From: Liolophura sinensis
Lineage: Eukaryota; Mollusca; Polyplacophora; Chitonida; Chitonidae
DNA length: 64,000 nucleotides
Assembly: GCF_032854445.1 (NCBI RefSeq)
Contig: NC_088306.1
Location: forward strand, 10,907,386 to 10,971,385
Direction: 5' to 3'
In this document: piece after piece, positions 23,073-45,700 of the stretch
Layout of the letters: each line of letters opens with the position of its first letter
Numbering within the stretch: position 1 is the stretch's first letter
The notes under the pieces: generated by a model
Seen by the model: only the letters and a program-made list of their open reading frames with translations
Databases searched by the model: none
What the model was told of the DNA's origin: nothing
Translations under genes and position numbers: made by a program

Positions 23073-26000
23073 AAGAGTAACAGTCTACAGGACTTAGTGG
23101 GACACACCCATACCTGCCTGGGATCGGCCAAACACAGGTGAGGTTTGAACTTTGATACCAGCTGGATGCCGTACGCTCTCACTATATGGTACCAGTATCC
23201 TGCAGGTTAAGTCATAGGTGAACACAGTGTTCTATCCACAGTTTCTGGTGTTCAAGACTGCAGACATCAGGGCACTTTACTTGTACGAGGCAGCAACAAG
23301 CAAACGGCGAGGTGAAAGATAACATGGGAGGGTATGGAGGATGAACAACACTGGACAATATTCAGTGAATACCACTGGTAATAACCAGAAATTGAAGGAT
23401 GTAAGACAACAGAACAATGTACACAGCATATATAAATTGTAATAGTCGACACAACATGGTTTCGGCCTTATTTATCCGTGACGCTTATTTAGCCGTGAGT
23501 TTTTCTTATTAACTCCATGCAGTAAAACTGCAAATGCTCGGATGTTCGTGGTCTCGAATTATGTTGGTGCCAATTTTTGTTTTTTTTTTGATTGGTGTTT
23601 TACGTCGTACTCAAGAATATTTCACTTATACGACAGCGGCCAGCATTATGGTGGGTGGAAACCGGGCACAGCCCGGGGGAAACCCACGACCATCCGCAGG
23701 TTGCTGCCAGACCTTCCCACTTTCGGCCGGAGAGGAAGCCAGCATGAGCTGGACTTGAACTCACAGCGACCGCATTGGTGAGAGGCTCCTGGGTCATTAC
23801 GCTGCGCTAGCGCACTAACCGACTGAGCCACGGAGGCCCCTGTTGGTGCAATTGATGACATGACTACTTCTCGTCAAAACATTCTCATACTTGGGAGGAT
23901 CTTTACTGTATCCTACAGTCTCATGGAATACAAGTAAAATTGGGGTTTACCTGTTCCTGTTGTACATTTTCTCTGGACTCACCCCGTTTTTCCATGTGCT
24001 AAAACTAACCTGAAAATTCACAGTTGTTCTCAGCGTGATGGTCGTCCCTTATATCATCTTACTTCAATTTGACTCAAAACATGCGATCTGGCGATGATAC
24101 AATGTGCACGAGAAAAGAGAAACAAAATGATAAGGAATTAAATTGCCCTAAATGACTCTAAAATTTCACCCACAAAAGGGGCATTTTTAGGGGCAAATAA
24201 ATGTCACAAATATTCTTTTTGTTACTGCAACTCCCAATTTTCAGTAGAATATCATCCCTTGTTCCAAGTAAACCTCAAAACACCTTTCTAAAATCAATAG
24301 AACTCTCAGAATCAGGAAAAATGGACAAACTAGTCATGATCGAAGTTTGTGGTCATTTAGGATAGTTATTGATTATGCCGGAATATGATGTGGTATGCTT
24401 GTGACATTTCAAATTTGACTTCGTGATTGTTTTCAACTGTGACCAAGCTGCTGTATAAGTCTGTGGCTCTGTGGATGAAATTTATGCCTTCTCTTTTAAT
24501 TTGGACCATTCATTCATGTAACAAGACACATGGGAGAAAGGTGATACAAAATTGTAAGCGAGAGATGTTACAGGTTCTGCGATTCTTTCTTTCTGATTAG
24601 CCAATTCTGTGCCTATTTAATTTATTCGTGTAGCTGGAGGAATAAGAGAAATAGGACAGTTTTGCAATTTTGCACGTTTGATTTGCCAGTTCTCAGACTA
24701 TTATATAATGCTTTTTTATTTATTTATTTATTTGATTGGTGTTTTACGCCGTACTAAAGAATATTTCCCTTATACAACGGCAGCCAGAATTATGGTGGGT
24801 GGAAACCCACAACCATCCCCAGGTTGCTGGCAGACCTTCCCACGTACTTCCAGAGAGGAAGCTAATGCTTTTTTTAAATGACAAGTATGTGGGAAAGTCT
24901 GTCAGCAACCTGCGGATGGTCGTGAGTTTCCCCCGGGCTCTGCCCGGTTTCCACCCACCATAATGCTGGCCGCCGTCGTATATAAGTGAAATATTCTTGA
25001 GTAGGGCGTAAAACACCAATCAAATAAATAAATCAAATTTAAATGTCAGAATGATATTTAACTGACCAATCAGACATGCAGATAAATACATGAATGACTT
25101 GACGGAATGTTGTAAATATTTTACACATACAGGATTGAAGGTTTGCTTTTGCTGGAGAAGATTGTCTGTCAGAGTAATACAGAAGTGTTTGTGAAACATG
25201 TCCGCAGTTGGATGAACTTGCTTCTGCAAGTCTTGCAGGTAAATATTAGTGTTGGTTGATTTTATTCATTTGAACTCTTTAAAATTTACAAATTTGCTAA
25301 TCAAGCTCAAAGTAAAAAAAATGCCATAAAAACTCAGCCGTGATGTATTTTTCTTGGACTTAAGACAAAATTTTAATCATGAAGATTGGTGTTTTCTTTT
25401 CCTTTATTTTAGCTGAAATTTGGTGTGTAACAACTTGCCTAGAATTTACGTTGACAAGCAATATTTTGTTCAAGCAATATTTTGTTCAAGCAATATTTTG
25501 ACCTTTTATTACTCATCAGAAGTAACAAGCTCAAAGTGATTTGAAATTTTGACTCAAGTCTTAGATTGCTTTGTGATCTCAAGGTCTGTTTTCATAACTT
25601 CGCATTTTAGTCTAACAAAGAAAATCCTCTCATGTTTGCACAGTTTGAGTGTTTTTTATGGTGAACTAAAGGTTAACTTAACTAATAAGTTTCACACAAG
25701 CAGTTGTTTTGTGTGTGTGTATATGCTTTCTCGCCATGATATGGCTGAAATATTGCTGATGTGGCGTAAGGCCATAATCATTCATTCTTTGTGGATAGGA
25801 AAATTACCCAAATTCCTCAACCTTTTCGTATATGAAAGAGCAACTTTCAGTGCAATTTATGCACATATTGATTTTGGAGATAAAACAACATTTTTTTAAT
25901 TGGCCAGTTTCAGGGCTTTTACAAAAATTATAAGTTGATCAGTCAACACAGAATAATGGCATCAGAGTATGCTAGAGTAAGCACCTTGCGAACACTACTG

Positions 26001-29000
26001 AAGAATTACAGTACTGTATGACTTAGCCTTTGATATGGTTGTATTAAGAGAAAATTTGTGAACATAGTTAGGAAATAAAATGTTAAGAAAGTAACTTTAT
26101 TTTGCACACATCTGGTTACTATGCAATAATGACTGCATTTATCCACAATTAAAACTTAAACAAAAAAGGACCTTGGTACTCCGGCATCTATAGGAATGGC
26201 AAGCAGTCAAAGCCTGCAGACATGGTGCACTGATTACCTCCCTTGATGCCTTTTTTTTTACATGTTTTAGGCACACTGCCCTGCAGCTCATCGCCATTTG
26301 ACTTGTCATGTGGTCAAACTCTTGCTGATAGAAAGTAAAAGTTTACCAGAGCTGGCCAGAGAGGTGTCCACATCATTTCTTTCTCAACTGTTACCACTAC
26401 TGCTGGGGGCATCGGAGGAGGTAGGATTTGAGGCTGTTATTGGGTTACCCCTACCTAACCACCTACATGTATCTTGGTGACATCAATAAGTTAACTCCAC
26501 TCATACAATGATTGAAGTAGTCTATACACAGAATTTGTCAGAAGAAATTAATTACTCAACCATGGAAAAGTTCACGAGTTACATGTCAGAGGCTGATGGT
26601 TTATGCCTGGTTGATTGGTTCCCTGAACCCATGAAACTGGCCTCATAAACATGAGAAGTGGACAATTCCTGGGTTGTACATTTAACAACAATCAAATCAA
26701 ATCCAATCAAATAGGGTTAATAAACTTTACCTGTACTGAACTCCCGTAAGAGAAACCTGGAGTGTGTACCAAATACATGTGCTCTTAACAATGGTACTAA
26801 TGGTTTTGATTAGCACCAGGGTCCATACATGAGTAAATCTGAAAAATCATGGGTTTTTGTGGTTGGACCGGGAAAAGCCATGAAATTAAGTCTTCAGAAC
26901 CAATATGAACTACTGTGTATTGTATCCTGACTTTTTCTTGGAGAGATTTGTTTTCTGGCATTTTTAAAATTGCTTAATGGACTTGTGTGTACGTTCGAAA
27001 GACTAAATGTTCAGCTTATCAGTATTTTTTAATAATAACATGGCTTCAATCTTGTACAATTTTCAAATTGTACTAGCCTGGTAAAATGTAATTTTTTTTG
27101 TCCAGAAAAGCCTTATAATTTCAACTCTTTAGTGAGCAGGAACCCTGATTCCAGTATTCAAATTTAGTACATCTGAATAAATTAGTTACAAAACCTTGTA
27201 AAATGCATCACTTGTATGTGGTTAGGATAGGTCAAATTTCTTCATACCTGCTGACTGGGCAGTTAGCGTCATTGTGTCCGTCCATCACTCAATCGATCTA
27301 TCATGGTTTTTGTTCTCCAGTGGGCGCCCTCTTCTATTGGCTGCATTAACACTTGTATCAGACAGTACCCTGGGGCTTGTGGAGTGTTTAAGGTTTGTTC
27401 ACATTGATCGAAATCTTTCGTTATTTAAGTCTGGTTCTCATAGAACTGACTAACCCTTACCAGTGGTCCCTGCTGACTGTATGAGAACACAGCCACTGGC
27501 AATGATGTATCGCCTGTAGTCCAGTGCCAGTCTGTACTGATGAACATACTTACTGGTGAATCAGTGCAATGAGAACACTTATATAATTGTTGCTGGACTT
27601 GGAAGACTCAATGTCCAGCCACCAGGTGTAGGAGATCAGGCTTTATGGTATCACTGCGTGTAAATGAATTTGAGAAAACTAAAAAACATTTTTCAAAAAC
27701 TTCACCCTCGTAATATTTAAAAGTGCATGTAAAAGAATATGTATTTGAATTCCATATTTAATACCATATTCCATATTCAGATAGATAAATCTGAAATAAA
27801 TGTACTAGTATCTTTTCGTTGCAGAAATTAAATGTTGTATTAAAAAAAAGCTCCATATCTGTATGTATGTTTTCATTTTCAGGGAAAAATTGAAAGCTTC
27901 ATATTGCTTTACTTGGACAGAGAATATCCTGCGGAGGTAAGATATTTGTTATTAAGGGCAAATTTAGGGATACCTGTACCATTTAGGATTTACTAAAAAA
28001 AAAAGCTGAATGTACAGTGTAAGGAGATTGTTATCAGTTCAAAATTGTGATGTGTTTTTGGAGTTCTGAAGTTAGCATAGCACACCTTACAAAGGGACAT
28101 CACTCTGGTGAAATAAGTTGAAATCCTTGTATTGCCTTCTGCTAGATTTTAGATATCTGGGCCCATATGCTGACTAGACTGCACACTAGTTAATGTTTTG
28201 GATCTTGAAATCTTGAAAACATTTTTCCCCAGGAGGCCATAAGATGTTTTGCCCTGTTAGCTGTCTGTGGTGGTAGTGGCAACCTGGGGGTGAAGTACAC
28301 AGAAGGCTGGGGTAGACAGTGTCATAGAGCCCTGGTCAGTCTGTGGTCAGTGGTAGCCAAGCTATATGCTCATCTGGATCAAGGTGAGTTTTACACCTAC
28401 CCAGGTAGACATGAGCAGTGAGAGATACATGTACATCTGTTACCTGCAAAGTTTTGAGTGCTAGATATGTGACGTGGACATTTTTTTCTCTCTTGATATG
28501 ACTGTCCCTTTATTGATTCAGTAAATACATATATAAGTGATAGGTACCTTTTGTGGCAGGCATGTTTAGAAGTTTTGATTGAATTCAGTTTCCTGTGGAG
28601 AAAGTGTTAATTTTAAAGAAAAAATTTGATCCAATTCATTATGATACAGACATACCTGAACAGAAAGAGAGTGGCCTCCCTTACATCCGATCCCAGAGTC
28701 TGAGCCAATGAGAAGCAGCCAACTGGAGGCCAGATATGAAATGCTGAGTCACTGTCTCTGCTATCCTGTTGAAGTAAGAATGGTTATCCCTCATAGCAAC
28801 ACTATTATTGAAGGACAATCTTCTGGCGGTATTATAAATTGGGGAGTGCTGTCTGAAGTCAGCCACTGATACTTGTGACATAAATAACATGTACAAGGCT
28901 AATGGCACTTCATTCCTTGTCTCGAGAGAGAATATTGTGGAACATTGGTGTGAGCGGCGTAATGATTTTCATTTTTCATTATCATTATTTTGACTATCTT

Positions 29001-32000
29001 TTGTAATAATCTTTCCTTGTTTGACAAATTACAGGGCTCTGCCCAATTTCTTTCCACCATAACACAGGCCACCGTTGTTTTAGTGAAACATTCTTGAGTA
29101 CAGCGTAAAACCCCAGTGAAATAAATAAACAGATAAATAAATATTTGGCAAAAACTGAAAAAATGAGTTTCAATATCGGGGGGTGGGGGGGGGGGGTGGG
29201 GGAAATGGTGCGCTGACAGTGACGCGAAAGTAGCCTAATATAAGTATGGCCACAGTGTGATACTGGCTGGTAACTGTAAGCCATAGAACAGTGTGTTTTA
29301 CATTATAAATGAAGAAAACGAAATATGTAAAACAATAATTAATTTTCTGTGTTTTTAGTATTGTGCTTTGGGTAGACTTGTACACATGTGACTGGTTACC
29401 GACTAATTTAATTGTTTTGCAGAGAGGAGTTGTCAGCCACAGCCAAGATTCCTGTGGAAGACATCTTAACACTGATATGCAGAACGTTGTCTGTTAATAA
29501 CAAAATGTTGGTAAGTTTTACACTTAATTGGGACCAGTTGCCATAGTATGTATGAAATACTGCCCGGAAAAATCATTTATTCATATCTGATTATCTCATG
29601 TCATTCCCAGAGCATTTCTGTCCAATAACAGGGAAAGCAATTAACAAAATGTTAGGGGTGGTATCTCAAAATGTACTTCATGTATTGAGGAGACTTTCAG
29701 TTTTAAATGCATATAAAGCATAGTGACAAGAGAGGAGTGTTCCATAGCTGATGATCTGTGTGCATTTTAATTACCGTATATTACCAAATACTTTGTTTAT
29801 TAAGCTGATGCACAGGTGAGCTCTGTCGTAGTCTTGCTGCAAAGGCTAAGTTTTATGAAAGTGGTTAGTTATCTATATGGAGGAAATGGGAGAGAGCTCA
29901 GAGAAAACCTTTATGATTCCACATCCACCTAAAAAAACATCTTGACAAAAACCACAGCTGAACATGAAGATGTTGGATTTGAACTTCTACCCTTATTGGT
30001 CAGGACGTGTTGACCAACTAAATCAGCTTGTACAGGAATCCTCTGAAATATTCTTACAAGACAAAAAAGTATTATACATGTACACCATTCCACTTTAATC
30101 TTGTGGAAGGAGACTCTGTTGCAATGTAAGGAAAATAATGTTTAAAGTGTTCGTTACCTTTAACAAATAATTTAACTATCAAAGCTGTTTATTATGTCTT
30201 GTTTTACTCAGCTATCCAAACGCACAACAGAGCGCCTCATGCTGGGGTACATCATTCCTTCCATTCACAAAGCAGCTCTTCAACTCTTATCAGCTCTCAT
30301 ACTCTGGTAAGCTTAAGTTTAATTTCTTTGTGGTTTTTTTTTTTCCATTACTTTTTAATTTATGATTTTTTCCTGTGGCAAGTTTTCACTTTTAAGGCTC
30401 TTTTTAATTTTGCAAGAGTTCTTCAATAAAATTTATATTATGTATGAAGGGCAAAACTTCAAATAGCGTGCTTAGCTTTTGCATTGAAAAAGAATATGTA
30501 AGTTCTGTGGAGCCTTTACACAGTATTTATTTATTGGATTGGTGTTTTAAGCCATACTGAAGAATATTTCACTTATACGACGGCGGCCTTGATGGCGTGC
30601 TAACCCCCTCAACCACGGAGGCCCCTACACAGTATTTGGATGGGACAGTAATTATGTGTATTGACCTTTATAATGGACATTACAGGATAAAGTAATATCT
30701 TTGTAATATTTAGTTATGTATCGTTAGCTGTGTCACCACACATCTTCTACCTGTGCCTGAGGATTAGAATTTCACACCCTGAGTTATAAATTGACACATA
30801 CTCTACTCAACATGGGGATAACGATTTTGTCCTTACAATATTTGCGAAAGAACTGAGCTGAGAAAAAGCAAGCAAGCCATGTCGACAGCAGATAACACGG
30901 GGATGCAGCGTTACAATGCAAAATAATGCCAGTCTGCGCAGTAATTTAGCTGTGCAGGGTTTAAATTTACTGTAATTCTTTAACCTTTTTGCATGTGTGC
31001 AAGGTGTGTATTCAAGCATATTCTGAAGACATTGTTCTATGTATATTGATAAAATTATACTTTTTGTGAAGCATTGAAAATGACCAATCAAACCAATGTA
31101 ATTGTGTCCGGATTATTCAAATTAAGTGTACAAATGTTTCTCTGAAAATTGCTCCTTCGTGTGCGAAATGGTTACAGTAAAGAATGATGTAAGTCTATCC
31201 AGTGATTTAGCTGCACAGGGTTTAAATTTCATATACTTCTTGTGGGCATGTCATACAGCTCTGGCAAGTGTATATCAACATTTTAACCTGTCCATGATCA
31301 GCCAGTGGCCATCGACAAACACATTATTGACCGATCACTTTGTGGGCAGATGTGTATGAATAAACACAATTACTGTAAGAATCCCATTCATTACCTGAAG
31401 CTAATGTGTTGTGTGCTGTGTTACAGGGTATGTGAACAGGAACTCTAAAGTGAAAGTTATGCCTAAAAAAAATTTAAAAGAAAAGTTTTTTGGGGCATAA
31501 TTTATATCTCTAGCTCTCCCCTCTATTTTTGCAAATTTTCTGTCACTGGTTGAAAGTTTTCGGAAAGGACATCATTGATGAATTTACTGGGAATGCTTGA
31601 CCAGTATAGCACCCCCCAGTACTAGCTCTTCCTCACCCCCTTCCCCTGCAGAATTGTTTTGACTGTATATTAAGTGTTTCAAGTATCCTTTACCAATATT
31701 TTGTGTTTTTACAGCACAAAGAAAATCCTGGTGCCATTCTGTGGGTGTATCATCTCCCAGCTCACACAGACTCTCAGCTGGACACATGTTAACTGTTACA
31801 CCGTGGGCATGGACAAACCATACAGGTACTGATGTCAGCATACCGTGCCATGTTAGGCTTACTATTTTCAGTTTGTGTTTGTTTATTATTTGTTTATTTA
31901 TGGGTGTGGGGATTTGTATTTAATTCTTCAATTCACCATGTGACTGAAACTTTGCAGATGTGGCATTAAAAAATAATCATTTATTTATTCATTTCAAAGT

Positions 32001-35000
32001 CTTAATTCCTTTAAAATTTTGAAGATAACAGTACATGGGAAGGTCTGCCAGCAAACTGCAGATGGCCGTGGGTTTCCACCGGGTTCTGCTCAGTTTCCTC
32101 CCACCATAATGCTAGCTGCCGTTGTATAAGTGAAATATTCTTGAGTACGGCGTAAAACACCACTCAGATAAATTAAAGGTCACAATCATTTGTACATGCA
32201 CAGCAAGATACTTTTGTTGACTCTATTTTGATATGTTAAGCAACGTTCTAAAACTTTCATCTTTCACATGGAGTTATTCATTTTTCAAGTTTTTTTTTTT
32301 ACTAAGTTTGAGTAATTTCTTATCAGAGCATTGGTGCCATTCTTTGACCTTTATTTTCTTCTGAGAGTGCATTTTTACACACCAAACTTCAGGTGAAATA
32401 TAAGTCCAGTAGAAACTTCAGTTTACATTTAGTATTCAAATTTATGCTTTGTAGTTAATTGTAGTCTTGATGTGTTAATAACTATCCCCAATATTTGTGG
32501 AATATTTGTGGTGTATAATCTCTGTTATATCCAAGGTATTTATTAAAATTCAGTAAAATTAAAACATGCATTAAGTTTATGCATGGATTCACTTTTGTAT
32601 GGAAATGTGTGAAGAAAAAAAATATCAGTAAGTTATTACGTGAAAACTTGAGCAAAGACTACATGTAAACATCAAACAGACTGAATGATACATTGATTTA
32701 ACTGATTTCAGTCACCTGCGGGAAACTGTGTATGCCGTGACTTGTGATTTGTTAAAAACTCTGGGAGGTTGCTGTGACCTGGGGTTGTTGGGGTCAGAGT
32801 TCATTCAGGAGCTGTTGTCAGACATCAGAGCTGAGGAAATAGAACTGAAGGTATGGTTGAGTTGTCACATTCATGTAGACTGAAATTGGAATTGAACTCT
32901 TGACAGTGATGACAAAATGGAAACATAAGTAAGGCCTGGACTTGAACTCACAGCAACCGCATTGGTGAGAGACTCCTGGGTCATTACACTGCACTAGCGT
33001 GCTAACCAACTGAGCCACGGAGGCCACCATAAAATGTTACTTTTGTAGTAATGAAATATACATTTTTCTTGTTAGATATCACCCTGCCTTATAAACAAAC
33101 TTCAAAACACCTTTTTGTGATTAACAGAACTCTCAGAATCTGGCAAAATGAGGAACTTTGTTATAAACAAAGTTTTAGGTCATTCACATGTATAACATTT
33201 TAATCCTGTTCAATTGGCAGTGGTGGAATACTGTTAAATATCAGGGAACACCTGTCCATGTATATAAATACGAGGCTATGTACAACGTACTGCACTGATT
33301 TAATGACCTTGTTGGGGCCTCAGTGGCTCAGTTGGTTAGTGCGCTAGGGCAGCGTAATGACCCAGGAGTCTCTCACCAATGCGGTCGCTATGAGTTCAAG
33401 TCCAGCTCATGCTGGCTTCCTCTCCGGTCATACGTGGGAAGGTCTGGCAGCAACCTGCGGATGGTTGTGGGTTTCCAAGAGCCCAGTTTCCACCCACTAC
33501 AATGCTGGCCGCCGTCATATAAGTGAAATATTCTTGAGTACGGCGTAAAACAACAATCAAATAAATAAATAAATCAAATGACCTTGTTAACTTCACTTGC
33601 TAACAAGAGTATGAGGAGATCAAAAATCGTTATGATTGAAGGCAGTGTTTAATAAAGCATTTGGTGCTACTCTATTAGTATTCAAAAAGCATTGGATGAA
33701 TAATCTTGAATTCCAGCACAACGCAATGACCTACAGGCCTCTCACCAAAGCAGTTGCTGTGAGCTCAAGCCCAGCTCTGGCTTCCTCTCTGGTTGTACGT
33801 GGGAAGGTTTGTCAGCAACCTGCGGATGGTCGTGAGTTTCCCCCGGGTTGTGCAAGGTTTCCTCCCTCCGTAATTCCGGCCATCGTCATATAAGTAAATG
33901 TAGCTGGAAAAAAAAAAATGGAAAAATGTTCTAATTTCTAGAGAACCGCAGGGTTCATATAGGGCCTTGAAAACCTTGAAAAACCTGGAATTTAAAAGTA
34001 ACTTTTCCAGACCTTGAAAAACGTGGAAAAATAGAGGTTTCTCTAGTTTGGCCTGGAAAAGCCTTTAAAATCTAATTCTTTTGTAGTTCTGCCTTGGCCA
34101 AACCTTGGCCAAACCTTGGCCACAGTAATGTGCTGACATTCTCAACATGAGAAATTTGTCTTTCATCAAATTTTAAGTTGATTACTTCAAAGTTTAACCA
34201 TGTCAACTATTCATTTATTTATTTATTTATTTGATTGGTGTTTTACGCCGTACTCAAGAATATTTCACTTATACGACGGCGGCCAGCATTATGGTGGGAG
34301 GAAACCAGGCAGAGCCCAGAAAAAACCACGACCATCCACTGGTTGCTGTCAGACATTCCCACTTATGGTCTGACAGGAAGCCAGCATGAGCTGGACTTGA
34401 ACTCACAGCGACCGATCAACTGTTCAAGTTCTTTTCACATTGCTCTGAACATGTGTAAGAGTAGAATATTTATTCCATGTAGCCTGGAAAATGTTAATGT
34501 TGTGCTTGGAAAAAGTTTTGAAAAACCTTGGAATTACCAAACCATTGGAATTACCAAACCATTGGAATTACCAAACCATTGGGTCTATTTCTCATTAGGA
34601 CAGTACATGTAGACATTTACATAAGGTCATACTATCTGTTTGAATCTTTTTTTTTTTAAATATTAAGTTATGTTTGGAATTGATTAATTTGCTAATGTTC
34701 AGTTTTTCTATTTCGTCATAGATAAACAGTTCAAAACTGAATAAGAATAACAGTTCAGACGGCCCATCTTCTTCCAAGAAAAGGAAGAAAAGTGGGGGTT
34801 ATCAGGAGATAAGTCGGGGCCAAGGACTGGCTAAAAAGATCAACAAAACAGCCAATCACAGCACTTGTTCCATGGCTCTGGAAGGTAAAACTAAAATGCA
34901 TGAATATTATTTCAGTGACAGAAACTACTTTTTTTACACATCTACACAGCAGAAATGAAAGCATTATAATCAATTTACAGGGTATACTTGTCTATAATAT

Positions 35001-38000
35001 TTCAAACGCCTTGTGGAATCATACTGAAGCCAAGTTTAATACATTTTAAAATCCCCCAGGAAATTGTTACATCAAATTCTGCTGATGTATAGCCACACAT
35101 GCTGTTGCTGTCAATCCAGCAAAATTTCTTTACGTGACTTTATTTATAACATATTCATCATCCCATCAGGAATATGTTCTCTCAGCTGGCCAGCTAGTAT
35201 CAAGTTTTAAGTCTGTTAAGTTAAGCGAGATGCAGTGTGAAAAAGACTCAGCCTGTTTATCCGGACTTACCCTGATTCCTCAAACTTTTGCCATATGAAA
35301 GATCAGCTTTTAGGGCAATTTATGCACATATTTGATTTGGGAGACAAAACTACATTGGTTGGATTGTCCATTTTGCAGGACTTTACAAAAAGTATAATTT
35401 TATCGATCTCCACATAATAATACCTTCAGAATATGCTTGCAGACATGCAAAAAGGTTGAAGAATACCACACCTTGCACACAAGCAATATTTGGGTCATAT
35501 CATGGTGATCAGAAAAGGATAAATGTCATAAAACCAGACAAACTGAAATAAAAAAATTATGCAAATGGTGCATAAAATATACCCTAAAGTAACGGCCAAT
35601 TACATGCACTTATACAAAAACAGCGCATGCAGCTACGAAATTCTCTGACTTCGTTAAAACTTACGTAAGGATTTTTATGTCATAGGAGAATTTTTGTTTT
35701 TCCTTCAAGATGTTTGCTGTGTAAGACGTGTAATGCTGTGAATGTTGTTGTTGTTGTTGCAGCACTGAGGTGGCTCTTACATACAAATGGCAGTACAGTG
35801 ATGACAAAGACAATGAAAGTAAGTTTTACCGTTCTACATAAATATCGGGTTTAACTTTTGGTTTGATTAATTTCCTTTATAAAGCTAAGGTAATTCATTT
35901 ATCGGAAAATTGGAAGAAGAAATGTGATATGTTTTTTTCTGCGTTACATGCTACAAGAGAACATTTTGAATTTTGCCTTATCAAAGTCAATGACGGAGAT
36001 GATGGAAGACAGTCATAATAAAGCACTTTGCAAATCCGTGGTATGTAACATAGCGCAATGACCTAAGAAACTTTCACCAATACAGTTGCGTGAGCTCAAG
36101 TCCAGGTCTTGGTGGATTCCTCTCGAGTAGTATGTGGGATGGTCTGCCAGCAACATGCGGATGGTGGTGGGGTTCACTGGAGCCCAAATTCCTTCCGGCA
36201 TAGTTCTGGATGCGGGTCATAGATGTGAAATGTTCTTAAATAAACATCCTAAAACATGAATTAGATAAATAAATTCAAATACTACAACTTGATTTGAACA
36301 GGCAACCGTTTATATCAGCAAGCCAGTGATTTAATCATTCTTCTGTGTTTGTTTTCAGGAGATAATCATTCTTCTGTGCGTGTTTTCAGGAGAATATCAT
36401 TCTTCTGTGTGTGTTTTCAGGAGAATATCATTCCTGTGTGTGTGTTTTCAGGAGATAATCATTCTTCTGTGCGTTGTTTTCAGGAGAATATCATTCTTCT
36501 GTGTGTGTTTTCAGGAGAATATCATTCTTCTGTGTGTGTTTTCAGGAGATAATCATTCTTCTGTGTGTGTTTTCAGGAGAATATCATTCCTCTGTGTGTG
36601 TTTTCAGTTGATAATCATTCCTCTGTGTGTGTTTTCAGGAGAATATCATTCCTCTGTGTGTGTTTTCAGGAGATAATCATTCCTCTATGTGTGTTTTCAG
36701 GAGATAATCATTCCTCTGTGTGTGTTTTCAGGAGATAATCATTTTTCTGTGTGTGTTTTCAGGAGATAATCATTTTTCTGTGTGTGTTTTCAGGAGATAA
36801 TCATTTTTCTGTGTGTGTTTTCAGGAGATAATCATTCTTCTGTGTGTGTTTTTGGGAGGTAATCATTCTTCTTTGTGTGTTTTCAGGAGATAATCATTCT
36901 TCTGTGTGTGTTTCAGGATATAATTTTTCTTGTGTGTGTGTTTTCAGGAGAATATCATTCCTCTGTGTGTGTTTTCAGGAGATAATCATTCTTCTGTGTG
37001 TGTTTTCAGGAGAATATCATTCTTCTATGTGTGTTTTCAGGAGAATATCATTCTTCTGTGTGTGTTTTCAGGAGATAGTGCATTGCCTCATGGAGGTAAG
37101 CAACCGCATGCAGCAGTGTGCTGACTCCCCTGCCCTCCCGTACGCTCACCCAGCCTGCCGAGTGGGAATATATCGGGCAGTGTTAGCCTTAGTACTAGTG
37201 CCACACCCTACTGTTCCACCCCCGGTACACCTGGCTTTCAGACTCCTACAGGGGGGGCTTCAGACCCAGACTTGCAGGTAATGTTAATACACTATGTAAC
37301 AAAAAGTTGATGTGTTATGTAAATCAGCCACAGCCACGCATGTTATATTAATGAGATGTTTATGTTCGTGAGATTAACAAAGACTTTAAAAATTTTACTT
37401 GCTGCTGCACTGAGAGGTTAGAGCAAGGAGACTTGACTGGTTGGCCTGGTGTCAGTATAATGTGACTGGGTGAGGTGTCATGTCTGGTGTCTTTGATGTG
37501 ATAATTCAGTAGCGGCAGCACTTTAACAGCATGGACTCGCCCTGCCACAAAAAGACACAGTATATGTACACACTCATAATGACTCGTCGTTGTCGTATGA
37601 CTGAAAAATTGTTAAGGACAATGTTAAAACCCAAGCATTCGTTCGTTTATTCTTCAGCAGATTGGCGTAGGGCATGTCGTGTGGGGGACTCCGATGTTGC
37701 ACATAATGATATTTTCTGCTTGACAGATGCAATGTAGCGTACGTTACACCGACAGTTCACATTGTTGATGTAAAGCTCATTCCACACGCTCATCATGCCG
37801 TAACTGTCTCAAGCCAGCAATTCACCATGTTCTACTTTGCAACATGCTATAATTCTGTAACATCTATATTTAGATGACCACTGAGACATCTTATGAAGAA
37901 AACAATATGTAAACAAGTTTTAGTTTAGTTGTGATGTAATCAAACGTATGGGAACTGACAGACAAGTTTGGATGCAAATTTCAAAAATGCACCCCAACCA

Positions 38001-39724
38001 GTTTTACGTGCATGTCATGCAAAATGCCTGCACAATATATTGGGCAGGTGTGTTTTGATAGTTATTATGGCATTCAAATTTATACACTCATATTTTCAAG
38101 AACTTGAATCTGTTGTTAAATATGTAAACACAGTAAATCACCGTTGTCTTCGTGGAATTTGTTTGCTGGTCATTGCCCAGCTAAGAGAATGGTAATAACT
38201 TTGAGTTATTAATGTTAATGTTTGAGAATTAATTAATGAGTAAACCACATGTGCTGTAATTTCACATAATTTTTCTCCACTTTAGTATAGCACGGTGCTT
38301 AGTTGATGAAAATTCCATGAAGTTATAAGTAATTTTAATACTGTAAGTGAAATATGTAACTTACAGCAACTGCAACCTAAAAGAAATTTATTTACATTCC
38401 TGATTAAGAACTGACCAATTGTGCTGTGTCACCGTTGTTGTTGAAGGTGTCATCGTGCTGTAGAGAAGCTGTGAACATTGTAGAGGTTATTGTGCATCCC
38501 AGAGCACCATGTCTCCAGCCAGTGGTCAAGATGACTGACCCTCCCATCCTGATTGGGCAGAGTACAATGATGAGAGGTGGGACGAATGTGGAATCTAACA
38601 ATATGACGTGCGAACATGATGGTGAAACGTATTATGATATTCCAGGTACACATGGTGGAAATCCATGGAGGAAGCTGGGAGCTTTCAACCCTCTTGATGA
38701 CTACATTAGAAGTCCTCACCACAAAGATGTATCGCATGAAACAGTCGAAATTTCTGCGAGAACTGTTAAGCGGAGTGAGGAAACATTTACAAGCAGTCAA
38801 ATGCAATTACAAGCCAAGGCTTCAACATCAAGCCTTGAAAGCCATCTTGATAACTTTCTTGCTACTAACTGTGACCTGCCAGCCAATCAAATGGTTTGTA
38901 ACATTGATTTTGAAAGAACTAATATGATTGATCAGAAGAAAGTTGAGGTTGTGTCATCTTCTGTTGCTATGGTAGCAAAAAACCCTTTGGATTTGTTGGA
39001 GGTCCAAAAAACTTGTACAGTTGATGAAGAAGTGGAGGAAGCGGGTGATGTTGTTCCTGTGAGTTTAGAAGGGAACGCAGTCTCTAAAACTGATACAGAA
39101 TGCAAAGTCATCTATCCAGATGTCCAACAAAAGTCTCTATTGGCAGATACAAGTGATTTGAAAGAGGTAATTGAGATATGTGCCGGTGATATGTGCACAT
39201 GAAACACAAGGAAAAGCTACCCAGAAGATGTTATCACACCTGTGAATGAAGTGGAAAAAATTGTTAGGAAATTTTGCTTCAAGATTTAATTTGCCACAAT
39301 TTTAATTTAATGTTCCTTCAAGAATTAATTCACACGCCAGAGCTAAGTTTAATCACCACCAAAACCAGGGAAGCTTTTTGTTGTAGGTGTCATTGTATTT
39401 GCTGTTTTTATTTCTCTTTTTTTCTGTGAACAAGGGTTTTAAATTTACTACCAGTGCAAACTTTGGCTAAAAATTTGCTTCTTTTTAGACTCACGTGACT
39501 GCAAGTTAAAATATTTGAATGGAATGGACTGTGAATTAATTTCATTTGTCATTTTAAGATATGGTTGAGTTTCTTCATGTAAGTGAAATTTAGTGAATTA
39601 TCTGCTAGCCCTTTGACTTTCTCAACGAATGAATATGTTCTGTTTCTTTCAGAATGAAGATCTCGAAGATATGCTGTCCAGTTTTGTTGACGCGAGCCCC
39701 GACAGAGACTCTGAAAATAATTAA
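23073..39724 (+). CDS. PELP1: PELP1 (Rix1-complex) homologue, 16 coding exons resolved, 5' end missing
   Basis: Exons: 23073-23137, 25133-25238, 26271-26420, 27321-27392, 27883-27936, 28233-28383, 28664-28773, 29427-29510, 30212-30306, 31715-31825, 32712-32850, 34722-34884, 35763-35818, 37072-37277, 38447-39166 and 39653-39724; about 784 residues. Phases agree at every junction except the one after 37277 (see findings). The exon borders at 28664 and 29427 rest mainly on phase. Recognised from colinear segments of the PELP1/Rix1 family: IEGLLLLEKI, PVEDILTLICRTLSVNNK, PSIHKAALQLLSALIL, LLSDI, VSSCCREA, and the C-terminal EDLEDMLSSFVDASPD. By family knowledge it is an alpha-helical-repeat scaffold of the PELP1-TEX10-WDR18 complex acting in the nucleolus in 60S ribosome maturation. 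A basic SSKKRKKS tract at about 34.78 kb is a likely nuclear signal, and LXXLL-type motifs occur in FLSQLLPLLL. The long glutamate- and proline-rich regions of the vertebrate protein are absent. SINEs crowd the introns. Confidence 0.9.
23582..23841 (-). repeat. SINE family A, full length
   Basis: Complete minus-strand copy in a PELP1 intron: tRNA-like head GGGGCCTCCGTGGCTCAGTC, core, and tail ending GTAAAACACCAATC with A-rich sequence. One of the best-preserved copies. Confidence 0.92.
24714..24863 (-). repeat. SINE family A, 3' part, left arm of an inverted pair
   Basis: T-rich reversed tail (TTTATTTATTTATTTGATTG) followed by the core. It faces the plus-strand copy that starts about 20 bases later. 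Confidence 0.88.
24885..25035 (+). repeat. SINE family A, 3' part, right arm of an inverted pair
   Basis: GTCAGCAACCTGCGGATGG to GTAAAACACCAATCAAATAA. It ends about 100 bases before PELP1 exon 25133-25238. Confidence 0.88.
25454..25500. repeat. 16-nt tandem repeat, 3 copies
   Basis: CAAGCAATATTTTGTT repeated, in a PELP1 intron. Confidence 0.9.
29033..29142 (+). repeat. SINE family A, 3' fragment
   Basis: Begins GGGCTCTGCCCAATTTC and ends with an AAATAAATA-rich tail. Followed at about 29.18 kb by a G-rich run. Confidence 0.75.
30524..30626 (-). repeat. SINE family A with internal deletion
   Basis: Tail and head are joined directly, with most of the core deleted (CGACGGCGGCC then TTGATGGCGTGCTAACC). 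Confidence 0.75.
32036..32174 (+). repeat. SINE family A, 3' part
   Basis: GGGAAGGTCTGCCAGCAAAC through GTAAAACACCACTCAG, in a PELP1 intron. Confidence 0.85.
32934..33029 (-). repeat. SINE family A, head only
   Basis: GGCCTCCGTGGCTCAGTTGG head with the B-box-like GTTCAAGTCC, all on the minus strand. Confidence 0.85.
33315..33577 (+). repeat. SINE family A, full length
   Basis: Complete plus-strand copy: GGCCTCAGTGGCTCAGTTGG head, core, GTAAAACAACAATCAAAT tail and AATAAATAAA. It has a short deletion in the usual CCCCGGGC segment. Confidence 0.92.
33718..33898 (+). repeat. SINE family A, diverged partial copy
   Basis: Begins in the head at CGCAATGACCTACAGG and loses the terminal tail after CATATAAGTAAA. 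Confidence 0.75.
34092..34122. repeat. 11-nt tandem repeat, about 3 copies
   Basis: CCTTGGCCAAA repeated, PELP1 intron. Confidence 0.85.
34209..34414 (-). repeat. SINE family A, tail and core
   Basis: Minus-strand copy ending within the head at CAGCGACCG. The rest of the head is missing. Confidence 0.88.
34525..34582. repeat. 17-nt tandem repeat, about 3.5 copies
   Basis: TTGGAATTACCAAACCA repeated, PELP1 intron. Confidence 0.9.
36046..36276 (+). repeat. SINE family A, strongly diverged
   Basis: Recognisable by GCTCAAGTCCAG, CAGCAACATGCGGATGG and a damaged tail. Probably an old copy. Confidence 0.65.
36359..37071 (+). repeat. Minisatellite of 31-nt units, each carrying a 3' splice-acceptor sequence
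   Basis: There are 23 units spanning exactly 713 bases: 21 of 31 nt, one of 32 and one of 30. Each begins GAGATAATCATT or GAGAATATCATT and ends with a GTGTGTGTTTTCAG-type pyrimidine-AG. The last AG (37070-37071) is the acceptor of PELP1 exon 37072-37277, and that exon begins GAGATAGTGCATT, the same start as the unit. The AG is lost in the unit ending at about 36855 (TTTTTGG). A partial unit precedes the array. Confidence 0.95.
37415..37652 (+). repeat. SINE family B, headless copy
   Basis: Shares with the copies at 49.2 and 60.6 kb the CAGTATATGTACACAC motif and the tail CGTATGACTGAAAAATTG then AAAACCCAAGCATTC. Confidence 0.75.
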
Positions 39725-42734: not shown

Positions 42735-45700
42735 ATGCAACCACTCGACAGCAAAATGTCTTTTATCCGGAAATTCGTCAGTAAACTTCAAGTAAGGAAA
42801 CGTTCAAACGCCTCCGTAAGTGAGAGCGAAAACGTGGCCTTGACTCAGGACGTGGATACCTTCCCGGAGGTCTCACCGACAGCATCATGGCCGCCTCCGG
42901 GTCGTCAGGCGGGGGTGTCGGCGGCAGCCTGGCCGGAGCCCATTGATGATAGAGTCAATGATGATAACTCTTCCTTCCTTTCCGTCCGAGGGGAACCGGA
43001 AGACGGTGAAGTGGAGGGAGGATGTGAGCGCTCTTCCTCCGCGTCGTCTGTTGATAGGAGAATAAGGAAAGATCGGAAAAAGATAAACAAGAAACTGGAT
43101 AAATACAGGTATAGGCTGGGCCACATTTACGAACGGATACATGTATTTGACTAAATTACCGAGTTATTTTAACCAACTTAGTCCAGGTGGATATACATGG
43201 TATCTTTACAGCCCGGAAAGTCTGTATGAATGTGTGAAAAATGTCTAGGAAAAAAGTATAATAATAAAAAAATATAATGCGTCTCATTTTCTGTTTAGTA
43301 GTATACTGGAAAGCGTGAGATTGTAAAGAACATAAAGCATCTTAGCAGAGAATTCTTTAAAAAATGAACTAGACGTGTTAAAGGTTTTCTGTTCTAAATT
43401 TATATTGCTCTATAAATCATTATGTTGTTTATTTCTTTCTCAGACAATCCTGCTCCGAGAGCGTATTAGATTTTATATTTAGGATTTCTGCCTAATAGAG
43501 CAGCCAATGCAGTTGTCCAAAATCAAAGTATAAGAGCAGTAGGTTTAGTTCATATTTAATAGACTGTTTTGCAATTATTTGTGGGGTAAGCACAAAATTA
43601 AAAACTTGGCTTAAATTCAAATCTGGTAATAACAGTAATCCTGTGTCCCGGTCATGGTTTCTCTCGTGATGTCAATTATTTGTATATATTTCATGTTGGA
43701 AAATAACTATCACTCATTCCCCAATGCACTGGTGTGATTTGCAGACGCGAACGCTGGCGGGTACAGCGTAAAGCCATGGAGCTTCAGCATTTACAGGATG
43801 AGATCTCTTCTCTTATGAAGATGCTGACTCAACTGAAAAAGCAGAAAAACTTGCTGGAAGCGGAGAAAAATAACAAACTGAGAGAAATGGTGCTGACATG
43901 TAAATTAGGTGAGCTGTTTTAAATGTTGTTTAGAACATGAAAATGGTGCAAAAGGATCAAGCCTAAGAGATGCTTAATACGCCTGCTCCCGAAGCCCTCT
44001 TAACGTTAAGAGCACGTAACTACCATGGCGACGTAATGCCTATAGTGCTCGTAGCCATGGTAGTTAAGTGCTCATAACGTTAAGAGGGCTTCGTGCAAGT
44101 GGGCACAGACCCCGGGATCACGAAGCAAGCTTAGACTTAAAACAAGATATCTAAATCACTTTAAAATATTTAGTTCTTACGTAACATGGACAAAATATTG
44201 CCTGAAGGAATAAATTTTGGGTAAGTTATTGTACAACAAATTGGAGCTAAAATAACGGAAACGAAGATGCCAAATTTAATGACTGAATTTTGACTTAAGT
44301 CTGAGATCGTTTCGTGATCCTATCCTAGCATATGATTGGTCCGAGACTCACTGGGCACTGACTTCGGGGGCCGATTCCACAAAGCCGTTTCTAACTTAAA
44401 GGGACATAGGCCTTCCGCCGAAACAAATTCAGAATTTTTCAGTTGGTTTAACTAGGTACAAAAATGAGTTGCATTTGGTTCCTAATTAACGCCAAAAAAT
44501 GTCAATTGAGAGAATTATAACATGCAAATATCATGAGAGAACATGCATATGCAGCGCACGGACAATAGATCGCAAATGTAAAGAATACAATAGACTGAAA
44601 GCGAATCATAAGTCTTATAAACCAAATACGATCTTCCTCTCTATTGAAAATGATTTATAAAGTATTCGTAACTCCCAGCGGTCAGCACGGTAGACCTGAA
44701 GTTAGCTTACATAGTACATGCAGACCGCATAATTACAACACAATACCGAGTCTGACTTGTCAAGTTCGCTGAACCTCTCCCGTCGTCTAGACAACGAGGG
44801 GGGTAACTGATTTAATAAATCAGGTTTTCGAAATACACACGACTGGAGTGAGTTGATGGTCGAAGGGAATACTCGAATAAAACTGAACATTCGATTTTCA
44901 CTCAAAGGCAGACAAGTGTCAGCAAACATCTGAAAGTCTCAACATTATGTAGATGACGTCTGAAATAACAACCATAATTTTGTCGACGTCGGCTGTATGT
45001 CCCTTTTTTTGTCAAAATTTAAAATCTCATCACTATGCTTATTTCTGGGTCCCGTAAGTTGAAATTTTGATAAATTTATTTTAAGATGACATTTATATGG
45101 TGGTCTAAATGGCAATTTCATGGTCCCAAGAGTAATCTTTAAAATTGTATTTGAAGTCAGAAATGGCTTTGGGGGATCGGCTCCTGATGGGTACTGATTT
45201 GGGCGCTGAATTCAGGTGGCTACTGATCTCAGGTGGCCGTTGGTTTCAGGTGGACGCTGATTCCAGGTGGGCACTGGTTTCAGGTTGCTCTGAGTTCAGG
45301 TGGGTACTGGTTTTAGGTTGCTCTGATTTCAGGTGGGCACTGGTTTTAGGTGGACACTGATTTCCGGCGGCCACTGATCTCGGATGACCACTGGTTCCTG
45401 AAGGACAGTAACAACAGATGCTACCACAGTCCGATGTTCCGACCCAAAGACGATTTTTGAAATAAAAAATGTATTAGTTCAACTCCAGACAAATGCTAGG
45501 AGTGTTTCTTTATTACCACATGTCAAAATGTTCCCAGCATAGAGTAGAATTAGCTTCCAAGAAAGCTAGTAAGTGTTTAAGGTGACAGAGTGCAATAATA
45601 GGTTACATTACGGTTTGTAGTGACGGTCAGACAGTTTGCTGGCACACATACGTAATTCATGCATTCTACTGTTTCAGTTCCAGAAGACATCAGTCCAGAA

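Follow-up and report, generated by a model that had tools for sequence, protein, structure and literature searches.

The question raised by this locus is which acceptor the splicing machinery would choose when an intron offers a long series of nearly equal ones. The window analysed here is a stretch of 64,000 nucleotides from the mollusc Liolophura sinensis. An earlier note on it proposed that the real acceptor of a PELP1 exon, together with the first bases of that exon, had been amplified into a ladder of near-identical and mostly frame-breaking copies, and both tandem-repeat analysis (TRF) and a table of the individual units bear this out. The features referred to below, in window coordinates, are the following, each with its basis.

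35763..35818, + strand: presumed preceding coding exon, 56 nt, ending with a complete codon before the donor GTAAGT (35819); sequence
35819..37071, + strand: PELP1 intron, the last ~740 nt of which are the array; sequence, TRF
36332..37077, + strand: minisatellite of ~24 copies; TRF, unit table, exact-match search of the genome
36357..36358, + strand: first (most upstream) duplicate acceptor AG; unit table
36825..36855, + strand: sole unit with a destroyed acceptor; unit table
36977..36978, + strand: only frame-keeping intact upstream acceptor; frame table
37070..37071, + strand: presumed authentic 3' splice site AG, final array copy; sequence, with the last copy as the probable choice
37072..37277, + strand: PELP1 coding exon, 206 nt, first 6 bases in the repeat; sequence count, PDB 9dum_C, 7uwf_C and 8fl2_NX (PELP1)
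37096..37101, + strand: donor-like GTAAGC within the exon, probably not a regular donor; sequence, PELP1 alignment spanning it
37278..37283, + strand: exon donor GTAATG; sequence

The PELP1 exon

The assignment of the exon to PELP1 was based on searches against PDB chains. The exon starting at 37072 matches a PELP1 chain with an E-value of 0.0046, and a stretch at 28209-28421 does so with 0.0017. When the three frames of 24001-39002 were scanned, one of them matched PELP1 residues ~104-143, 235-284 and 322-358, with an E-value of 1.7e-6 for the whole, the second matched weakly at the 37-kb exon (E 0.78) and the third gave no PDB match. Altogether, residues ~104-143, 235-284, 322-358 and 551-608 are matched in gene order, each single match being weak. 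The PELP1 identity put forward earlier thus stands on weak but specific PDB matches and on three earlier stretches in the expected order. The frame of the exon, which begins EIVHC, is the frame of the PELP1 match, and the exon itself has one match in the genome. Pfam recognised no PELP1 domain in the single exons. The presumed preceding exon, bounded by a CAG acceptor and a GTAAGT donor, reads without a stop in the frame that leads into EIVHC. It showed no homology itself, and its presumed identity is based on the frame and the splice consensus. The donor-like GTAAGC at 37096-37101 is present as described, but the 24-base micro-exon that it could define is unlikely as a constitutive exon, because the PELP1 alignment begins before 37096 and continues through the exon, although it is weak near that end.

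Architecture of the array

The minisatellite has a period of 31 bp, 24.1 copies and 90% matches, with a TRF score of 1168; for periods of at least 10, first-order Markov resampling of the window, repeated 40 times, gave a top score of 60. What is repeated is the 3' splice site of the PELP1 exon and the first 6 exon bases. The repeat had previously been placed at 36359-37071, and we find its start 27 bases further upstream and its end 6 bases inside the exon. A typical unit, of which there are a few variants, consists of a branch-point-like ATCAT, a tract of (TG)n and T-rich sequence, TTTTCAG and then GAGATA or GAGAAT from the start of the exon. From 36358 to 37071 the array offers 24 acceptor positions, 23 of them upstream of the presumed authentic one, and they are spaced by 31 nt with the exception of one interval of 32 and one of 30. 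The AG is intact in all but one (36855, which reads TTTTTGG), in agreement with the 23 copies and 22-23 intact AGs counted before. The remainder of the exon is contiguous with the last copy only.

The upstream copies are very close to the presumed real acceptor. In an ungapped comparison from -20 to +3, five of the 23 are identical to 37071 and 17 differ by at most one mismatch, the apparent divergence of copies 36483 and 36916, each with a one-base length change, arising mainly from the shift. ATCAT, which resembles the branch-point consensus TNAY, occurs in 23 of the 24 units, the exception being unit 36947 with ATAAT; the A of ATCAT precedes the last intronic base by 20-22 nt. In nearly every unit there is no AG between this A and the unit's own acceptor, the previous AG lying upstream of the A, so that each AG-bearing unit looks like a self-contained 3' splice site. 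Most units contain a TG run, and the motif TGTGTG occurs 21 times within the 746-nt array. A recursive, or ratchet, splice site, which has a donor such as GTRAGT immediately after the AG, was considered and rejected: the AG is followed by GA in 22 of the 23 intact units and by TT in the other, never by GT. The window contains a second acceptor-like array, at 45200-45393, with 17/34-bp units that carry TTTCAGGTGG (5.3 copies of 34); it is upstream of a coding-exon candidate near 45678 and stops ~280 bp short of it.

Reading frame of the upstream acceptors

The period of 31 does rotate the frame, as had been pointed out, but not quite in the regular way that would put every third acceptor in phase: owing to the intervals of 32 and 30, seven of the 23 upstream positions are in phase, six of them with an intact AG. 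Among the 22 intact upstream acceptors, 36978 is the single one that keeps the frame open, adding 93 nt (31 codons) free of stops exactly as first read; the other 21 shift the frame or run into a stop. The nearest neighbour of the presumed site, 37040, would add 31 nt and meet a stop after 27 codons. Upstream of 36978 its frame is shut by a TAA, which is present as reported, at 36829-36831 and not at about 36833.

This arrangement could be taken as a sign of regulated use of 36978, which would insert 31 residues into PELP1, the more so since the AG is gone from 36855, the one other in-phase copy with an open frame, so that a single intact one is left. One open copy in 22, however, needs no special explanation, the added peptide would be a translated intronic repeat, and no Pfam family scored above its cut-off for the 149-aa frame that includes this peptide. 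We regard such a regulated isoform as very improbable.

Probable origin at the locus

The array seems to have arisen where it is found. A genome of 609 Mb in 632 contigs was searched with the 19-base unit motif TTTTCAGGAGANNATCATT, and all 20 exact matches lie inside the array, which makes birth at the PELP1 locus probable; masked and gap stretches are invisible to this exact-match search. With one mismatch allowed, the motif is also found scattered at other places, in some cases clustered. One such variant, TTTTCAGGAGAAAATCAGT, forms clusters on contig 4 (21.29-21.34 Mb) and contig 11 (13.23-13.24 Mb) with spacings of ~0.8-8 kb and belongs to another local repeat. GTGATT stands before the first unit, and after the last one the exon goes on with GTGCATT. 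The repeated piece begins with TA and is again followed by TA, which is weak evidence compatible with a 2-bp microhomology. A 31-bp piece containing the branch-point-like sequence, the pyrimidine tract, the acceptor AG and 6 exon bases may thus have been duplicated once, perhaps at this TA/TA match, and may then have expanded to ~24 copies by slippage or unequal exchange. Mean identity is 0.890 between all units and 0.901 between adjacent ones, and the order of unit variants gave no significant sign of local slippage (330 of 5000 permutations were as high as the observed order).

Similar arrays elsewhere in the genome

Two samples of arrays were taken from contig 1. Acceptor arrays were defined by three TTTCAGG motifs with gaps of 12-42 nt (20 clusters among the matches listed, contig 1 to 93 Mb) and donor arrays by three AGGTAAG motifs (17 clusters among the matches listed, contig 1 to 5.2 Mb). 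Their flanks were read by eye, with no blind rule, and the candidates were then searched against Pfam and PDB. Two of the 20 acceptor arrays end at exons above Pfam cut-offs and two more at weaker candidates; likewise, two of the 17 donor arrays start at homology-supported exon ends and two at weaker candidates. The remaining 16 and 13 sampled arrays, respectively, showed nothing convincing by eye. Four exons were compared with NCBIfam and gave no match. The eight cases are:

L010, acceptor array: GH18 exon (Pfam 3.1e-10)
L019, acceptor array: prefoldin subunit 3 exon (PDB 2.1e-11, Pfam 6e-6)
L021, acceptor array: tetraspanin-like candidate (Pfam E 0.0042, below cut-off; no PDB match)
L023, acceptor array: candidate 55-codon open frame to GTAAGT (no family match)
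L030, donor array: RRP7A (PDB 1.2e-10; Pfam 0.0008, below its cut-off)
L037, donor array: core-2/I-branching enzyme (Pfam 1.4e-6)
L036, donor array: open frame only, with a 207-nt gap from the first donor to the next copy
L041, donor array: open frame only

The array of L023 (237-1731) has 37 copies of a 40-bp unit (TTTATTTTCAGGCCATGTGAGATG...) and ends at the 55-codon open frame with its GTAAGT donor. None of its 31 upstream TTTCAG sites keeps the frame. In the four acceptor cases besides PELP1 together, L023 included, there are 46 TTTCAG sites in the 1.6 kb upstream, no fewer than two of them outside the arrays, and none keeps the frame open. We take this to mean that such arrays could persist in conserved genes only if the upstream copies are little used.

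These further cases bear on whether the PELP1 array could be an assembly artefact, with its copy number inflated or the array misplaced. Short tandem arrays are easily miscounted and the data come from one assembly; the units, on the other hand, carry individual variants in an irregular order, the exon has its single match in the genome, and further boundary arrays are found elsewhere. We give this explanation next to no weight.

Acceptor motifs do not appear to be specially amplified. Genome-wide, three-TTTCAGG arrays were found at 856 places (529+327) and arrays of the reversed motif at 608 (341+267), while the single word occurs 127,801 times and its reverse 59,512 times. Acceptor arrays per single motif are therefore less frequent than in the reversed control, with no sign of special acceptor amplification, and a neutral birth fits this result. 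On contig 1 to 93 Mb there are 20 acceptor clusters versus 14 reversed-motif clusters, clustered by eye among the matches listed, and the rate at which the sampled arrays touch exons stands without a base rate from these 14. For the donor motif, 2394 array places compare with 1213 for the reversed control (singles, 85,904 and 79,919), counts in which places overlap within arrays and the matches listed come largely from a small number of long arrays; no enrichment is claimed. Donor-motif arrays crowd the beginning of contig 1 (L025-L041 and others, 0.49-5.19 Mb).

In none of the nine mirage candidates, PELP1 among them, is the period a multiple of 3, whereas it is in 9 of the 28 other arrays sampled. 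Fisher's test gives p = 0.08 and a one-sided binomial test against 1/3 gives p = 0.026 for this post hoc comparison, which we do not claim as a result. L016, which has no usable TRF period, was dropped from it, and L036 has a TRF period of 113 with a commonest spacing of 40. A lack of periods divisible by 3 might come about if arrays that preserve the frame either became part of exons or disappeared. A minisatellite-rich genome would be expected to found some arrays on splice junctions by chance, and where splicing ignores the upstream copies such arrays can persist.

Two other observations were made in the same genome. Within 12 kb of contig 8 (37,880,506-37,891,931) lie eight consecutive hemocyanin beta-sandwich domains (PF14830), in open frames of 429-529 aa of which the last is the longest, a complete-looking 8-unit molluscan gene; 8-unit hemocyanin marks molluscs. 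None of 14 control genomes had the domain, a contrast of little weight because those identified are prokaryotes. Contig 99 carries seven copies of mitochondrial COX1 at a spacing of ~15.5 kb, that is, head-to-tail mitochondrial genomes, probably an assembly concatemer.

Comparison with known boundary repeats

In amphioxus, minisatellites that duplicate an intron-exon boundary have been called “mirages” and are reported, in the passages cited here, not to disturb splicing (PMC3087553, PMC3902484). By its structural features the PELP1 array is a mirage of this type. The repeat spans the predicted exon-intron boundary, passing through the AG at 37071 and on into the exon by 6 bases; its units carry copies of the splice signals (AG and ATCAT, each in 23/24); and it is specific to the locus and not dispersed (20/20 exact matches of the 19-base motif). 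The amphioxus genes named in these passages are Adh3, with units of 10-72 bp, TnC, the globins BflGb6 and BflGb9, and PGBD5 (PMC3087553, PMC3902484), and the mirages of Adh and TnC are said there to generate no aberrant mRNAs (PMC3902484). The amphioxus system, as described in the same passages, and the present one share a tandem duplication of the boundary with splice signals in many units, and in both amphioxus and Liolophura sinensis acceptor and donor sides occur. They differ in that the PELP1 array belongs to a mollusc and has 24 copies, whereas BflGb6 of amphioxus, a cephalochordate, has 6 and 3 in two haplotypes.

In the literature found, as far as its passages go, the term “mirage”, with this meaning, is applied to amphioxus genes, and boundary repeats are also described in human genes (PMC5954066, PMC2812944). 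The VNTR in intron 18 of human ABCA7, according to the passages of its report, has a 25-bp unit that is present in 23.7 copies in the reference genome and has the splice donor of exon 18 as its first two bases; an isoform that retains one repeat unit amounts to 2 +/- 1% independently of array length, and longer arrays go with more skipping of exon 19 and lower expression (PMC5954066). This repeat is on the donor side with measured length effects, whereas the PELP1 array is on the acceptor side and is known from sequence alone. In human paralogs within segmental duplications, boundary minisatellites (mean 30-bp units, 4 copies) may give rise to new introns by way of cryptic splice sites (PMC2812944); those are recent human duplicates with transcript evidence, and the passages of that work describe no acceptor ladder.

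Two further human systems resemble the array in part. The minisatellite of 6-16/IFI6 reportedly contains multiple splice donor sites, so that it and the PELP1 array, with its acceptors, are both minisatellites supplying many splice sites. In intron 8 of CFTR, a (TG)m(T)n tract, with a TG repeat and a T run in a TDP-43/CELF-type binding context, stands directly before the 3' splice site; there one acceptor has a variable tract, whereas here the acceptor itself is repeated along with a similar TG/T tract.

Splice-site choice

Since the units are locally equivalent, the choice among them cannot rest on local strength. A branch point functioning in any one unit would select that unit's own AG, and the decision would have to come from beyond the repeat, that is, from the 206-nt exon with its enhancers and donor. 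By exon definition, an established principle, the nearest acceptor, 37071, would be favoured. We consider it likely that the PELP1 array is a mirage-type minisatellite in which 37071 is mostly used, with a small upstream leak, and which is otherwise neutral and likely variable in length. Most transcripts would use 37071, and a few per cent or less may leak to 37040, where the 31 added nucleotides would shift the frame and the product would be removed by nonsense-mediated decay (NMD). Known cases suggest that the authentic site is mostly used as normal: because the amphioxus mirages are reported without aberrant mRNAs and ABCA7 leaks little, use of 37071 with a small leak is to be expected, and the ABCA7 data leave room for an effect of length.

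A rule by which the first acceptor to be transcribed wins would instead lead to use of the upstream copies, and an alternative is that several of them are appreciably used, with frame-broken products going to NMD and PELP1 output falling as copy number rises. The local signals of many copies equal those of the real site, and all but one of the 22 intact upstream acceptors would lead to a frameshift or a stop. In the passages on ABCA7, skipping of exon 19 and expression depend on the length of a donor-carrying repeat (PMC5954066), a dependence that favours the idea, already in the earlier note, that array length could alter splicing. Against this, the Adh and TnC mirages reportedly give no aberrant mRNAs (PMC3902484, in the passages cited), and the presence in the same genome of several mirages at conserved exons without a frame-keeping alternative suggests that strong leakage would be intolerable. 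We therefore hold appreciable upstream use to be unlikely, if a good deal short of negligible. A bolder variant is that the array acts as a copy-number rheostat, in which UG-coating proteins of the TDP-43/CELF type, which are specific for UG runs, hide or expose decoy acceptors, and PELP1 dose is set through NMD by array length and by these proteins. We think this highly unlikely; if it were true, the mirages at many exons of Liolophura sinensis would amount to a heritable, fast-changing layer of splicing control.

With predominant use of 37071 as the preferred reading, what the case adds is the extension of mirages to a mollusc and their recurrence at both intron ends. Several mollusc exon arrays, on acceptor and donor sides alike, suggest that mirages arise wherever minisatellites are common and that splicing tolerates them. 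Boundary-spanning arrays may also be a route to new introns. Each array is a natural experiment, in which near-identical splice sites differ mainly in their distance from the exon, and thus tests how the spliceosome chooses among equals.
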